A stretch of 64,000 nt of DNA from Alphaproteobacteria bacterium (GTDB taxonomy: Bacteria > Pseudomonadota > Alphaproteobacteria > Micavibrionales > UBA2020): the NCBI GenBank assembly GCA_004297545.1, contig SCTB01000118.1, positions 1 to 64,000 of the forward strand, given 5' to 3'. Made by a program: the position numbers and the translations under genes. Shown piece by piece: positions 4,252 to 15,459 of this stretch (position 1 is the first letter of the stretch; the number at the start of each line of letters is the position of its first letter). The notes beneath the pieces were generated by a model, which worked only from the letters and a program-made list of their open reading frames with translations, was not told the origin of the DNA and searched no databases.

Positions 4252-4377
4252 ATGACCCTCGAATCCCGCATCGCCAGCATCGAACGGCGCAACGGCAAGG
4301 TGCCGCAGGACAAGGCCTGGGAAGCCAGCCGCACGCGCCGCAAGTGGGATGAGAAATGTGTCGTCCCGGACAAGTGA
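4252..4377 (+). pseudogene. Small ORF, possible truncated remnant running into a dispersed repeat
   Basis: The reading frame gives 41 residues beginning MTLESRIASIERRNGKVPQD and containing KAWEASRTRR. From memory, an N..KV...KAWE-S-TRR pattern followed by two membrane helices is found in small alphaproteobacterial membrane proteins; that recall was not checked. Here the membrane part is missing: after TRRKWDEKC the frame enters repeat family A (GTCGTCCCGGACAAGTGA), which supplies the last codons and the stop. I read it as a gene whose 3' half was replaced by the repeat. It could still be a real short protein. Confidence 0.4.
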
Positions 4378-4521
4378 CGGCGAAGCCGGAACGCTGAGCC
4401 GGGATCCAGCATTCATTCGCGCCGTCAGGCGCTCATTAGAGACGAACCGCTGCGCGGTTCGGAATCAGTCCTGTGTCCCGGCTCTCGCGATACGGCTTCG
4501 CCGTACGCGGTCCGGGATGAC
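4360..4521. repeat. Dispersed palindromic repeat family A, copy 1
   Basis: The element starts GTCGTCCCGGACAAGTGA and ends TCCGGGATGAC, so its ends are inverted repeats of each other. The interior contains GAACGCTGAGCCGGGATCCA, a GGCGCTCATTA motif, and the hairpin GAACCGCTGCGCGGTTC. Copy 2 at 5004-5161 matches it over nearly the full length with scattered changes. Confidence 0.8.
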
Positions 4522-4639: not shown

Positions 4640-4999
4640 ATGATCAGATTTTCCCACACCGCCACGTTTGAGACTGACGGCATGGAAAAAGAAGTCCGCG
4701 CCGTTTTCACGACGAAGCCGGCCACCAGCGCGCTGGCCACGCTGTTCAACGTGAAAACCGCAGGGACCCGCCGCAAGCCGGGCGACATCGACATGACGCT
4801 CGAACAGGTCGAGCAGAACATCGCAACCTCCGGCATCGGCCCCGAGGCCGACCAGTTAAAGCTGGGCCGCACCGCGATCATCCAGCACCAGCGCTATGAA
4901 GAACAATTCGCCAACCGCGTCTCCAAAGCCTTCGCGGCGGCGGTGGGGTTGGGCCGTGTGACACCGGCTGTCAAACAGTCTGCGGGGGTTTCTCTCTAA
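4640..4999 (+). CDS. Conserved-looking hypothetical protein, 119 aa
   Basis: A strong GGAGG lies 10 nt before the ATG, so the frame is very probably translated. The protein is soluble, without a signal peptide or membrane segment. It has a basic middle region (KTAGTRRKPGDIDMTLEQVE) and a helical C-terminal half. It belongs to no family I recognise. It sits alone between the two full copies of repeat family A, on the plus strand. Function unknown. Confidence 0.65.
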   Translation: MIRFSHTATFETDGMEKEVRAVFTTKPATSALATLFNVKTAGTRRKPGDIDMTLEQVEQNIATSGIGPEADQLKLGRTAIIQHQRYEEQFANRVSKAFAAAVGLGRVTPAVKQSAGVSL

Positions 5000-5003
5000 C
5001 TTT

Positions 5004-5161
5004 GTCATCCCGGACAAGTGACCGCGCAGCGGGAACGCTGAGCCGGGACCCAGCATTTACTCGCGCCGTGAGGCGCTCATTAAAGACAAACCGCTTCGCG
5101 GTTCGGATTCGCTCCTGGGTCCCGGGTCAGGCGCTCGCGTTGCTCGCTGGCCCGGGACGAC
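5004..5161. repeat. Dispersed palindromic repeat family A, copy 2
   Basis: It begins GTCATCCCGGACAAGTGA and ends CCCGGGACGAC, with the same internal order as copy 1: GAACGCTGAGCCGGGACCCA, GGCGCTCATTAAAGAC, then the hairpin AACCGCTTCGCGGTT. The changes relative to copy 1 are largely compensatory across stems (GCTGCGCGGT versus GCTTCGCGGT), as expected of a structured element. Confidence 0.8.
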
Positions 5162-5168
5162 AATAACG

Positions 5169-5357
5169 TCACCCCATCTCCATCGCGACCATGCTTGAAA
5201 AAGGCCCCTGCACCTCGAAGACCGTGGCCGCGGGCAATTCGTCGGCGTTGTAATCGAGCGCCTTTTTCGCCGCGTCGTGCTCCGACAGGGCATAGGTGAC
5301 CACCGGGGTCTTGAAGCCCCTGCTCTCGAGATAAACCCTGTAAAAACCGCGCGCCAT
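5169..5357 (-). CDS. Small hypothetical protein, 62 aa
   Basis: The 62-residue frame begins MARGFYRVYLESRGFKTPVV and is preceded by an excellent GGGAGG about 8 nt upstream on the reverse strand, which supports translation. The sequence looks like a small mixed alpha/beta domain with no signal peptide. No known family is recognised. It lies downstream of the sensor kinase on the same strand, 136 nt away, but probably has its own promoter. Confidence 0.6.
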   Translation of the reverse strand: MARGFYRVYLESRGFKTPVVTYALSEHDAAKKALDYNADELPAATVFEVQGPFSSMVAMEMG

Positions 5358-5493: not shown

Positions 5494-7002
5494 CTACTTC
5501 AGCGTAAAGTAAAACGTCGTCCCCTGGCCGGGAGTCGATTCCAGCCAGATCCGCCCGCCGCTGCGCTCGATGATTTTCTTGACGAAGGTCAGGCCCGCGC
5601 CGCTACCCTCTTCGTCCATCGCGGAGGGCAGGCGCCGGAACATGCGGAAGATGTCTTCGTGATGTTCGGGCGCGATGCCGGTGCCGTTATCCCTGACATA
5701 GAAGATATCCCGGGCGCGGCCGTGCGGCGCGTCCATGCCCTTGATGAAGCCGATCTCGACAATTTTTTCGGGCTTGTCGTTGTATTTGACCGCGTTGGTG
5801 ATCAGGTTGCGGAAAACTTCCGCCACCCTGACCTTGTCGCAGGTGACGACCGGCAAGGGCTCCGGCACGAAAATACCTGCGTGTTTCTTTTTGAGGAACG
5901 AATCCATCATCAACCGGATGTCGGCGATCAGGGCGTTGGGGTCGGTTTCCTGCACCGCCATCTGGGAATAGCCGAGCTGGGAGAAATACAGAAGGCTCGT
6001 GATCAGCTGCTCCATGCGCTGCACGAGTGCGGTCATGCGGTTCAGGCGTTCCACGCCTTTTTCATCCAGCTTGTCCCCATAGTCTTCCTTCAGGAAGGTC
6101 GCCAGCGTCTGCACCCCCCGCAGCGGCTCTTTCAGGTCGTGAGAGGCGATATGCGCGAATTCGTCCAGGTCCTGGTTGCTGCGCTCCAGCGCCCTGGTGT
6201 ACTGCAGCAGCTGCTTTTCGGCCTCCTTGCGGCCGGTGATGTCGCGGATAATGCCCGAAAAAAACTGCTGGTCGCCCAGACGGAACGCGCTGATGGAAAG
6301 GTCGATGGGGCAAAGGCTGCCGTCCTTGCGCTTCGCGGTCAGCTCGCGCCCGGCCGTGCCGATGATCTTCTTCTCGCCGGTTTCCATGTAGTGCCGGAGA
6401 TAGCCGTCGTGCTGGCCCTGATGCGGCTCCGGCATCAGCATCCTGATGTTCTGCCCCAGCACTTCAGCCGCCTTGTAACCGAAAATGCGCTCGCAGGCGG
6501 GGTTGTAGGTCTCGACGATGCCTTCGGCATTGATGGTGATGAGTCCGTCCAGCGTGTGTTCCACCACCGACGACAGCATCGCCTCGCTGCGCTGAAGCTG
6601 CGCGGCCAGTTTCAGGCGCGCGAGTTCCGCCGGGTTGGCGAATTGCAGCGCCAGCGGCAGCAGCCGGATGGTGACAAGGCAGGCGATGATCGAGACGATC
6701 GCGGTGAAAGCCTTGATGACGCCGTCCGCCGCGTAATCGGGATGCCAGATCACCCATATGCCCATCAGGTGCGTCGTGCCGCAGAGCCAGATGAAGGCGC
6801 TGAACAGCACGAACAGCGCCTTGTACGGCAGGTCCTGGCGGTTGCGCACGAAATACAGCAGCGCCAGGGGAATGGCGTAATAGGCTCCCGCGATGCCCGC
6901 ATCCGACAGGACATGCAGCCACAAAAGTTCCGGCTTCCACAGGAAGCAATGCCCGTGGGGCATGAATTCGTCGGATCTGAAAAAGTCCAGAAGGGCCTGC
7001 AA
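5494..7002 (-). CDS. Ethylene-receptor-like membrane sensor histidine kinase with FixL-like PAS domain
   Basis: The 502-residue kinase has three N-terminal helices (about 27-52, 62-83, 94-117) matching the plant ETR1 ethylene-binding domain: Asp34, Tyr41, Pro45, Cys74 and His78 keep the ETR1 spacing of Asp25, Tyr32, Pro36, Cys65 and His69, with Cys and His being the copper(I) ligands there. A PAS domain (about 137-258) carries QHDGYLRHY with His198 and IIGTAGRE with Arg219, resembling FixL haem-ligand positions, with one extra residue. A HisKA H-box follows (His288 in HIASHDLKEP), then HATPase N box (about 399-409), DNGTG and GSGAGL. The start is a TTG; an in-frame stop lies two codons upstream, and the next ATG would cut the conserved N terminus. 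No partner response regulator is adjacent. Confidence 0.93.
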   Translation of the reverse strand: MQALLDFFRSDEFMPHGHCFLWKPELLWLHVLSDAGIAGAYYAIPLALLYFVRNRQDLPYKALFVLFSAFIWLCGTTHLMGIWVIWHPDYAADGVIKAFTAIVSIIACLVTIRLLPLALQFANPAELARLKLAAQLQRSEAMLSSVVEHTLDGLITINAEGIVETYNPACERIFGYKAAEVLGQNIRMLMPEPHQGQHDGYLRHYMETGEKKIIGTAGRELTAKRKDGSLCPIDLSISAFRLGDQQFFSGIIRDITGRKEAEKQLLQYTRALERSNQDLDEFAHIASHDLKEPLRGVQTLATFLKEDYGDKLDEKGVERLNRMTALVQRMEQLITSLLYFSQLGYSQMAVQETDPNALIADIRLMMDSFLKKKHAGIFVPEPLPVVTCDKVRVAEVFRNLITNAVKYNDKPEKIVEIGFIKGMDAPHGRARDIFYVRDNGTGIAPEHHEDIFRMFRRLPSAMDEEGSGAGLTFVKKIIERSGGRIWLESTPGQGTTFYFTLK

Positions 7003-7107
7003 TATCTACCGCTGTTTAGAATGAATACGATGTCCGTCAATGTCCGGATGATACCGCGCCATTCAGGCTGTGTAAATTTGGACGTAATTTCCGGAAAACC
7101 AATTACT

Positions 7108-7159
7108 GTCATCCCGGATCGGCGTTCGCGCTCAAGCGCGCTCACTTGTCCGGGATGAC
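7108..7159. repeat. Short member of repeat family A
   Basis: The ends are GTCATCCCGG and CACTTGTCCGGGATGAC. The right end is the reverse complement of the left end of the long copies (GTCATCCCGGACAAGTGA), so this is a shortened 52-nt palindromic version. It lies between the sensor kinase promoter region and the next gene. Confidence 0.65.
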
Positions 7160-7166
7160 AACGGAA

Positions 7167-12453: not shown

Positions 12454-15400
12454 TCAGGCCTTTTCGCCGACGCGGAAGCCGATTCCGGACTTTTCCTCGG
12501 TCACCGTTTTCCGGGCCTCGTCATAGGCCTCGTGCAGGTCCGCCGCCTCGATGACGGTCAGCGCTTCCATGCTGAAGGACGCACCTTTTTCCGGCGCCTT
12601 CGACGCCACGCGGCTGGCGAGGTTTTTCAGGGTGTCCTCGAAGAGGTTGCGGACGAACCGCCCGTTCGGGAAGTTCACTTTGAAGGTCTCCGGCGCGTCC
12701 GCCATGATTTCCTTCAGGGCCTGCCCGGCGCCAGGTGACAGAACATACTTAAAGTCCTTCGCCAGCTTCTGGTAGATTTTTTCAAGGTCGGCAGGGGTGT
12801 AGTCTTCAAACGTGATGAAATCGGTGAAGCGCGACTTGAGGCCCGGGTTGGAATCGACGAAATCGGTCATTTCCTTGGGGTAGCCTGCGACGATCACGAC
12901 AAACTTGTCGCGGTAATCTTCCATGAGCTTCAGGAGCGTCGCGATGGCATCCTGGCCGAAATTCGCGCCGGAGGCCGTCGGATGGTCGGTGATGGTATAG
13001 GCTTCGTCGATAAACAGGATGCCACCCATGGAATCCGCGACGCGGCTCGCCATCTGCGGACCGGTGTGCCCGACATACTGGCCGATCAGGTCATAGCCCG
13101 TCGTTTCAATGACGTGCCCCTGTTCGAGATACCCAACTTCCTTGAGAATGCGCCCGAAGATGCGCGCGATAGTCGTCTTGCCCGTGCCTGGATTGCCCGT
13201 GAAGACGAAATGACGCGCCGAGCGCGCAACGGGCAGCCCCGCCGTGACGCGGCTCTTGAAGAATTGCATCTCGTGCGCCGTCTTGCGGACGGCGGTCTTG
13301 ACATTCGGAAGCCCGATCAGCCCCTCAAGCTCCTCGAAGGCGGAAATGGCCGGCGCCGTCGGCGGCTTGGCCCCGGCCGAAACGGGCGGAAGGTCGAGGG
13401 TCGTGCCGTCCCTGCCCTTCAGCTTCGTTTTTTGGGGTTCCACCCAGATGGCCTCAAAAGCCTTCTGCACGTCGGCGGCTGTCAGGATCATGACGTCCTC
13501 GCGGGTTGGGTCCGCTTTCGCCGCGACGCGGCCGCTCAGCATCTTCAGCGTCTCGTCGAAGAGATTTTTCACATAGCGCGCATTCCCGAACGTCCGGGAA
13601 TATTTTTCCGGCGCCATCGGCATGATGCGCTCTAGCACTTTGTCGCATCCGTCAGCCAGCATGTAATCCGCTTCATGCGCCATTTTCACGTAAATAGCGG
13701 CGAGTTCCTCCGCGGAATAGCTGTCGAAGTTGATATAAGTCTGGAAGCGCGATTTCAGGCCGGGATTCTGGTTGAGGAAGTTCTTCATTTCATCTTCATA
13801 TCCCGCCACGATCATCATGAACTCCTGCGCGGGATCTTCCATGGCGCGCAATATGACGTCCACCGCTTCCGCCGAAACGTCGGACCTTGAGCCTTTGTAT
13901 TCGGTGAAGTTATAGGCCTCGTCGATAAACAGGATCCCGCCCTGGGCTTCCTTCAGCTTCGCCGTCATCCTCTGGGCGGACTCTCCCACGTAGCGGACGC
14001 CCAGGATATCGGCCGGCGAGGTTTCGACGAGCTGCCCCTTCGAGAGCACACCCGCTTCCCTGAACATGCCGCCCAGGATGCGCGCAACGGTCGTTTTCCC
14101 GGTGCCGGGGCTGCCGGTGAAAACCGTGTGCAGGTTGAGCTTCTTGGACGGCAGGCCGAATTTCGCGCGGGCGCGGTCAAGCTCGATGCGATCGAGGAAA
14201 TTCCCGATCCGGGCCTTGACGTCCTTCTGGCCGATCAGAATATCCAGCTTCTTGAGTATCTTTTCGCGCCGCCTGACGGCATTCTGGGCGGCTCGGTGAA
14301 GGTCCTGCAGGTCCTCGGCGCCGGGGCCGACATGGGCGATATCGCCGTCTCCAAGCTCTGCGCCCGCGTCGATCAGCATCTGCACGACTTTCTGACGCCC
14401 GTTGGATGCGGCGCAGACAAGAGCCGTGTACCCCTTGACGTTGCGCTCGTCGACGGCCGCGCCCGCGTTCAGGAGCAGAGTGACGATTTCCGCATGTCCC
14501 TGCCACGCCGCAAAGATAAGCGCCGTATTCCCGAGGTTGTCTTTCTTGTCGAGCGGCGCCTTCGCGCGGGCGAGCGCCTGCGCGATAGCCTCATGGCCGC
14601 GCCAGGCGGCGAGGATCAGCGGCGTGCGGCCCTTTTCGTCCCGCCCGTCGAGAGCGGCGCCGGCCGCAATCAGCGCCAGCGCCTTCTTAACGTCGGGCTC
14701 GCGCTTGTCGACTTCCAGCAGCAATTCGACCCCTTGCGGGTTCGAGGCGCCGGAGACGACAGGCTTCGTGACGCCGGACAAGTTGGCTTTCTGGTCCGTG
14801 CCGTAGGTGACATTATATTTCTGGCTGGTCACGGCGCTGCTTTTGCCCAGCGCCTCGAGCGCCGCCTTCGCGCCGGCATAGCCTTTTTTCGCCGCCTTGT
14901 CGTACCAGATCATGGCCTCCGCGGTATTGGCGACAACACCCTTGCCGTTCTGATAGCACCAGCCCAGGAAAAACTGCGCGCCGGCGTCACCTTGCTCGGC
15001 CGACTTCATGAACCAGCCGACGGCCTCGGTGAAGTTCTGCTCCACCCCTTCGCCGCGCAGATACATGTCCGCAAGGTTGTGCTGGCCGCTGGGATCGCCT
15101 TTATCGGCGGACTTGCGGAACCAGTAAAGGGCTTCGGATGAGCTCTTGATCACGCCGTTGCCGTAGCGGTAGCAAAGCCCGAGATTGTTCTGCGCCGCCG
15201 CATGCCCCTTGCCGGCGGCCATGCGGTACCACATGACGGCGTCGGCGAGGTTTTTTTTGACGCCCACGCCTGTCTCATAGCAGCGGCCGAGGTTGAACTG
15301 GGCATCGGAATGCCCCTGATCGGCGGCGCGGCGATACCACTCGGCCGCCTTCACCGGGTCTTTCGGAACGCCGGCTTCGCCGAAAAAATAGATATCTCCC

Positions 15401-15459
15401 AGCTGCCGCTGCGCTTCCGCGTCACCGCCTTCTGCTTTTTTGAGCAGCGCCTGATCCAT
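12454..15459 (-). CDS. Sel1-ankyrin-tandem CbxX-type AAA+ ATPase, 1001 aa
   Basis: The domain order is unusual. Five to six Sel1 repeats span about residues 1-205 (each with A-WYRRAA/G-A-Q-NLG-CY-G-GV). Three to four ankyrin repeats span about 245-375 (GRTPLILAAWRGH, GNTALIFAAWQGH, GYTALVCAASNG). Two CbxX/CfqX-type AAA+ modules follow. Walker A motifs are GSPGTGKTT (about 447) and GNPGTGKTT (about 753); both Walker B motifs read ILFIDEAY. CbbX activates Rubisco and SpoVK/EccA-type relatives remodel protein complexes, so a remodelling ATPase recruited through Sel1/ankyrin adaptors is inferred. No signal peptide or membrane helix is seen. The substrate is unknown. Confidence 0.92.
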   Translation of the reverse strand: MDQALLKKAEGGDAEAQRQLGDIYFFGEAGVPKDPVKAAEWYRRAADQGHSDAQFNLGRCYETGVGVKKNLADAVMWYRMAAGKGHAAAQNNLGLCYRYGNGVIKSSSEALYWFRKSADKGDPSGQHNLADMYLRGEGVEQNFTEAVGWFMKSAEQGDAGAQFFLGWCYQNGKGVVANTAEAMIWYDKAAKKGYAGAKAALEALGKSSAVTSQKYNVTYGTDQKANLSGVTKPVVSGASNPQGVELLLEVDKREPDVKKALALIAAGAALDGRDEKGRTPLILAAWRGHEAIAQALARAKAPLDKKDNLGNTALIFAAWQGHAEIVTLLLNAGAAVDERNVKGYTALVCAASNGRQKVVQMLIDAGAELGDGDIAHVGPGAEDLQDLHRAAQNAVRRREKILKKLDILIGQKDVKARIGNFLDRIELDRARAKFGLPSKKLNLHTVFTGSPGTGKTTVARILGGMFREAGVLSKGQLVETSPADILGVRYVGESAQRMTAKLKEAQGGILFIDEAYNFTEYKGSRSDVSAEAVDVILRAMEDPAQEFMMIVAGYEDEMKNFLNQNPGLKSRFQTYINFDSYSAEELAAIYVKMAHEADYMLADGCDKVLERIMPMAPEKYSRTFGNARYVKNLFDETLKMLSGRVAAKADPTREDVMILTAADVQKAFEAIWVEPQKTKLKGRDGTTLDLPPVSAGAKPPTAPAISAFEELEGLIGLPNVKTAVRKTAHEMQFFKSRVTAGLPVARSARHFVFTGNPGTGKTTIARIFGRILKEVGYLEQGHVIETTGYDLIGQYVGHTGPQMASRVADSMGGILFIDEAYTITDHPTASGANFGQDAIATLLKLMEDYRDKFVVIVAGYPKEMTDFVDSNPGLKSRFTDFITFEDYTPADLEKIYQKLAKDFKYVLSPGAGQALKEIMADAPETFKVNFPNGRFVRNLFEDTLKNLASRVASKAPEKGASFSMEALTVIEAADLHEAYDEARKTVTEEKSGIGFRVGEKA

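Follow-up and report, generated by a model that had tools for sequence, protein, structure and literature searches.

A sensor histidine kinase from an alphaproteobacterium pairs an ETR1-like ethylene-binding domain with a FixL-type PAS domain and is a candidate sensor of two gases

The window, by which we mean the whole stretch of 64,000 nucleotides analyzed here, encodes a sensor histidine kinase in which an ethylene-binding domain (EBD) of the ETR1 type is followed immediately by a PAS domain of the FixL type with its His/Arg pair. This arrangement is shared by a supported EBD clade formed by the window protein and its relatives in genomes G013 and G321, and this is what is new here; ethylene receptors as such are already known in Alphaproteobacteria (AzoEtr1). 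A literature search of partial coverage found no description of an EBD paired with a FixL-type His/Arg PAS. The explanation that we favour, with a probability of roughly 0.55, is a dimeric sensor kinase of the inner membrane with two serial gas inputs. It is supported by the homology of the domains, by the predicted fold, by site residues that are conserved and by a layout kept in the relatives.

Layout of the kinase

The earlier note had placed an open reading frame at 5494-7002, and it is real; the strand, which had not been given, is the minus strand. The frame codes for 502 aa from a TTG start (aa 1 = 7002), with a stop codon two codons upstream of it. The TTG is a plausible start, since the homologue in G013 begins at about the same position, and if translation started at the alternative Met14 all the site residues would still be kept. 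The features of the kinase are the following:

5494..7002, minus strand: EBD-PAS-histidine kinase (ORF, and full-length homologues L111 and L116 with the same layout)
6643..6930, minus strand: ethylene-binding domain, aa 25-120 (Pfam ETR1_N, residue alignment, AF2 model)
6205..6585, minus strand: FixL-type PAS, aa 140-266 (phmmer, AF2 PAS model, VIA-align)
5971..6168, minus strand: HisKA dimerisation/phosphoacceptor domain, aa 279-344 (Pfam, alignment)
5497..5838, minus strand: HATPase_c catalytic domain, aa 389-502 (Pfam E 3.6e-23, motifs in the sequence)

The Pfam match to PAS_9/PAS covers aa 142-256, and that to PAS_9 alone aa 152-256. The HisKA domain holds the invariant His288 within ASHDLKEPLRG, and in the HATPase_c domain the N, G1, F and G2 boxes are all intact. 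The full-length AF2 model reached a pTM of only 0.49, so that the arrangement of the domains is uncertain; the alignment behind the structure prediction excluded the AzoEtr1 row of the plasmid collection.

Two kinases have an identical layout and are similar over the full length, L111 of G013 (61% identity) and L116 of G321 (58%), and a chimera or an assembly artefact is thereby ruled out. The flanking UDG and IMPase proteins are 78-83% identical to those of the sister genome G003 and are encoded there in the same order, which makes a contaminant contig (the bin has a contamination of 7.9%) unlikely.

The ethylene-binding domain

The N-terminal part matched Pfam PF25487 (ETR1_N) over aa 25-120 with E 9.6e-37 and 125.6 bits, the cut-off for this family being 27 bits. 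The presence of an intact ethylene-site motif had been proposed from Asp34, Tyr41, Pro45, Cys74 and His78, and our alignment bears this out and extends it. D34, Y41, I44, P45, I71, C74 and H78 correspond to ETR1 D25, Y32, I35, P36, I62, C65 and H69, and K97 corresponds to the output lysine K91. The numbering of the ETR1 N-terminus in this alignment agrees with all seven published positions. In the AF2 model the domain forms three long helices (24-54, 61-86 and 90-119), predicted to be transmembrane and with the topology of ETR1. A sequence search of the PDB with the EBD gave no match, so the helices were examined by alignment and full-length prediction only.

The seven ethylene residues are present in 41 of the 56 EBD frames collected. 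Their conservation is not automatic, since the homologues L131 and L132 carry Gly at the position of the copper-ligand Cys (ETR1 C65) and must for that reason serve another role. These two Gly-for-Cys proteins (L131:3842-5281 and L132:4210-6633) occur next to intact paralogues in the genomes G294 and G372, and are possibly non-binding receptors.

Their existence lends something to a different reading of the window kinase, namely a sensor of O2 or redox state through haem, with a membrane part that responds to a cue other than ethylene, e.g. copper, or only anchors the protein. We identified neither a source of ethylene nor any gene related to it, and the genome has no ACC deaminase above the cut-off (ethylene metabolism was dropped as a context on the latter ground), which points in the same direction. 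However, the window protein retains all seven ethylene residues, several of which a mere anchor would not need, and the homologue AzoEtr1 with the identical set binds ethylene (PMC11819568). We regard this reading as quite unlikely. Homology and site residues point to the binding of copper and ethylene by the window EBD, and we consider ethylene binding likely.

The FixL-type PAS domain

Among solved structures the closest by phmmer were the PAS domains of SmFixL (E 2e-30) and BjFixL (3.6e-28), followed by DosP (1.7e-16). Prediction of the structure had been suggested earlier as a check; besides the three EBD helices, it gave for the PAS domain modelled alone (AF2, mean pLDDT 93.8) a fold for which the haem domains of BjFixL were the best matches in the PDB by VIA-align (1lt0, Z 21.0, rmsd 0.9 Å over 115 residues). 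The values for other folds were about 16 for DosP and about 14 for LOV domains.

The claim that this PAS is FixL-like, based on His198 and Arg219, was upheld at the level of single residues. His198 aligns with H200 of BjFixL and is located on F-alpha (helix 194-208 in the AF2 model), and Arg219, which opens G-beta (strand 219-224), aligns with the distal Arg R220 if one extra residue before it is allowed. The insertion is found in the motif TAGR in the window and in TPGR or KPGR in L003, L147 and L205. A further difference is that the propionate-contacting Arg (R206 in BjFixL, R200 in SmFixL) is replaced by His204; like the insertion, it counts against the reading with two gas inputs. Since SmFixL R200H retains the haem together with its deoxy and CO spectra (PMC10765370), we consider His204 a secondary feature that is not decisive against haem.

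The F-alpha His has been described as the primary determinant of haem binding in the FixL/DosP PAS cluster, where about 60% of the members, over 9,700 in number, have it (PMC10468136). The His/Arg pair in a FixL-type PAS is necessary and common, but it is not proof of haem, because only some 60% of the cluster has the His and many members with the pair are only putative binders. Taking all this into account, haem binding by the window PAS is moderately likely. The kinase as a whole is not FixL proper, which we ruled out because it scores 155.5 bits against NCBIfam NF041777 (FixL), far under the cut-off of 850, and has no FixJ alongside.

Distribution among relatives

The genome has a single EBD locus. 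EBDs were detected in 2 of the 18 genomes of the family, in 8 of 94 in the order and in 28 of 385 in the class. Together with AzoEtr1, which belongs to the same class (PMC11819568), these counts do not support a restriction of bacterial ethylene receptors to cyanobacteria. What had been proposed stands for the domains, the ethylene motif, the haem-type PAS and the lack of an adjacent regulator, and it is the novelty of ethylene receptors in this lineage that has to be given up.

In the EBD tree the window protein grouped, with a support of 100/97, with L111 from the same family (G013) and with L116 from a different family of the class (G321). A FixL-type PAS with His and Arg directly after the EBD was found in these three and in L205 of G848, a genome that shares its genus with G321. 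In L179 both residues are present in a FixL-like PAS that is more distant, L206 (G980) combines a similar EBD with a different PAS without the His, and the PAS of AzoEtr1 (L099) falls outside the FixL type.

The last two cases bear on whether the PAS is an input at all. The kinase might be an ethylene receptor with a single input, in which the EBD binds ethylene and a haem-free PAS serves for dimerisation or signal relay, as is presumably the case in AzoEtr1. This receptor works with the same EBD-PAS-HK plan, and the different PAS of the related L206 indicates that the domain is exchangeable. On the other hand, the His/Arg pair is complete in 4 of 4 proteins with a close FixL-type PAS directly after the EBD, and the modelled PAS of the window superimposes on the FixL fold at 0.9 Å. 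A single input seems to us rather unlikely.

In several relatives the EBD is encoded by a gene of its own, for 139-153 aa, and keeps all seven ethylene residues (L117:4681-5106, L121:4352-4810, L175:4320-4775 and L176:5015-5431). In L117, L121 and L175 a separate kinase gene without EBD comes directly after, and in all four there are receiver genes further along. A stand-alone EBD with a separate kinase is apparently a split ethylene receptor, found here within the taxonomic order and class to which the window belongs.

Genomic surroundings and partner receiver

The sister genome G003 has the genes IMPase, p119, m104, SLT and UDG in the same order as the window, and lacks the kinase and the small ORF next to it. 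At the site of the window kinase, p119 and m104 are there only 162 bp apart. The difference may reflect either a gain in this lineage or a loss in the others. The additional features of this segment are:

5172..5357, minus strand: putative protein of 61 aa without known domains, encoded downstream of the kinase (translation)
5002..5027, plus strand: left arm of a 26-nt inverted repeat (96%) (repeat search)
7136..7161, minus strand: right arm of the same 26-nt inverted repeat (repeat search)

The inverted repeat, which belongs to a larger palindromic element, flanks a segment of 2.1 kb with the kinase and the small ORF; the latter may form one insertion with the kinase. Elements of this kind, with the core TCATCCCGGACAAG, are located at 4354-4489, 4998-5133 and 7107-7161 of the window; two copies of 136 nt agree at 85%, and inverted arms lie on either side of the kinase segment. 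At 12454-15459 the window encodes a protein of 1001 aa with Sel1 repeats, ankyrin repeats and two CbxX-like AAA domains.

No receiver domain was detected within the 64 kb window (E 1e-6), in agreement with the earlier observation that a cognate regulator is not adjacent. In L111 and L116 the kinase gene has a single-domain receiver gene as its direct neighbour, overlapping with it or abutting it. The best homologue of the L111 receiver in the genome of the window is G000:C116:38167-38586, on another contig (48% identical, E 7.5e-37), and the next one is clearly behind (35%, 9.8e-18). We infer that this single-domain CheY/Rcp1-like receiver is most likely the partner of the window kinase. The region around it (L144, G000:C116:34000-38600) codes for a kinase, three receivers, a receiver-kinase and the lone CheY/Rcp1-like receiver, a two-component cluster that resembles the receiver genes adjoining the split EBD genes of relatives.

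These surroundings could also suggest a kinase recently acquired and orphaned, without functional output and heading for loss. The lack of a receiver in the window, the empty site in G003, the palindromic repeats on both sides and the presence of an EBD in only two genomes of the family would all be consistent with it. Yet the ORF is intact with every kinase box conserved, and a close receiver homologue is present elsewhere in the genome, so that we find this possibility highly improbable.

The genome encodes a cbb3 oxidase (ccoN), and sensing of low O2 therefore makes sense. About 10 kb from ccoN, the locus L146:3437-8194 (G000:C194) contains a FixL-type PAS kinase, an OmpR-type regulator, further receivers and a Crp-type protein. 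With such a kinase on the ccoN contig the window kinase is not the sole candidate O2 sensor, and the real one could be that of L146.

Proposed mechanism and its meaning

In the reading that we prefer, in which one gas sensor follows the other, the binding of copper, ethylene and haem, the direction of control and the partner would be as follows. The three N-terminal helices would hold Cu(I) through Cys74 and His78 and so form an ethylene-binding site like that of ETR1, SynEtr1 and AzoEtr1. Helix 3 would run on through a coiled-coil linker to the cytoplasmic PAS. There, haem b would be bound via His198 and would take up O2 (or NO/CO), with Arg219 stabilising the haem-bound O2 in the manner of FixL. 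Ethylene and haem inputs would together control the autophosphorylation of His288, and the phosphate would be transferred to a single-domain CheY/Rcp1-like receiver encoded elsewhere. Dual gas sensing by this kinase is plausible, and the chances that both inputs are integrated in the one protein are about even. We propose more tentatively, at somewhat less than even chances, that a small clade (window, G013 and G321, with G848 by architecture) has fused a copper ethylene receptor with a haem O2 sensor and computes both gases.

If both sites work, a single kinase joins a copper-ethylene sensor and a haem-oxygen sensor. If this is true, it would be, within the papers searched, the first example of a receptor that reads two gases at two different metal sites, and it would offer a compact model for the oxygen gating of ethylene signals. 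Such gating would bear on waterlogged soil and on the surface of roots, where ethylene and oxygen change together. Ethylene receptors outside the cyanobacteria, a growing set, gain another domain pairing with this kinase. The soluble PAS half is easily tested, and for the EBD half there are established assays.

Comparison with known systems

The FixL proteins of Bradyrhizobium and Sinorhizobium share with the window kinase the haem-type PAS, the equivalents of His200 and Arg220 and the order of PAS and kinase. The window kinase differs in its ethylene-type membrane part, in the change of R206 to His, in the residue inserted before the distal Arg and in the lack of FixJ. Arabidopsis ETR1 matches it residue for residue at the N-terminal ethylene site. 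ETR1 has GAF and receiver domains, and its output goes to CTR1/EIN2, unlike that of the window kinase.

The closest known case within the class is AzoEtr1 of Azospirillum brasilense, a functional EBD-PAS-HK receptor that binds ethylene and alters biofilm formation, and whose D35A and C75A mutants do not rescue the biofilm phenotype (PMC11819568). Like the window kinase it has an EBD with all seven residues, one PAS, HisKA and HATPase, in 525 aa compared to 502. However, its PAS (PAS_4) has no match to the FixL PAS profile, its kinase core belongs to a different subfamily (AHEMSQPL versus ASHDLKEPLRG) and the gene of its single-domain response regulator overlaps the kinase gene, whereas no regulator is adjacent in the window. 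SynEtr1 of Synechocystis and GeiEtr2 of Geitlerinema are, like the window protein, bacterial EBD kinases with an additional sensory domain, but their second input is light, through a PAS/PAC/GAF arrangement, in the place of the FixL-type haem PAS. Since SynEtr1 senses both ethylene and light (PMC11819568, PMC6682694), a dual input has a precedent. In Proteobacteria EBD genes are widespread and their outputs varied, and several inputs have been suggested as possible (PMC7700396).
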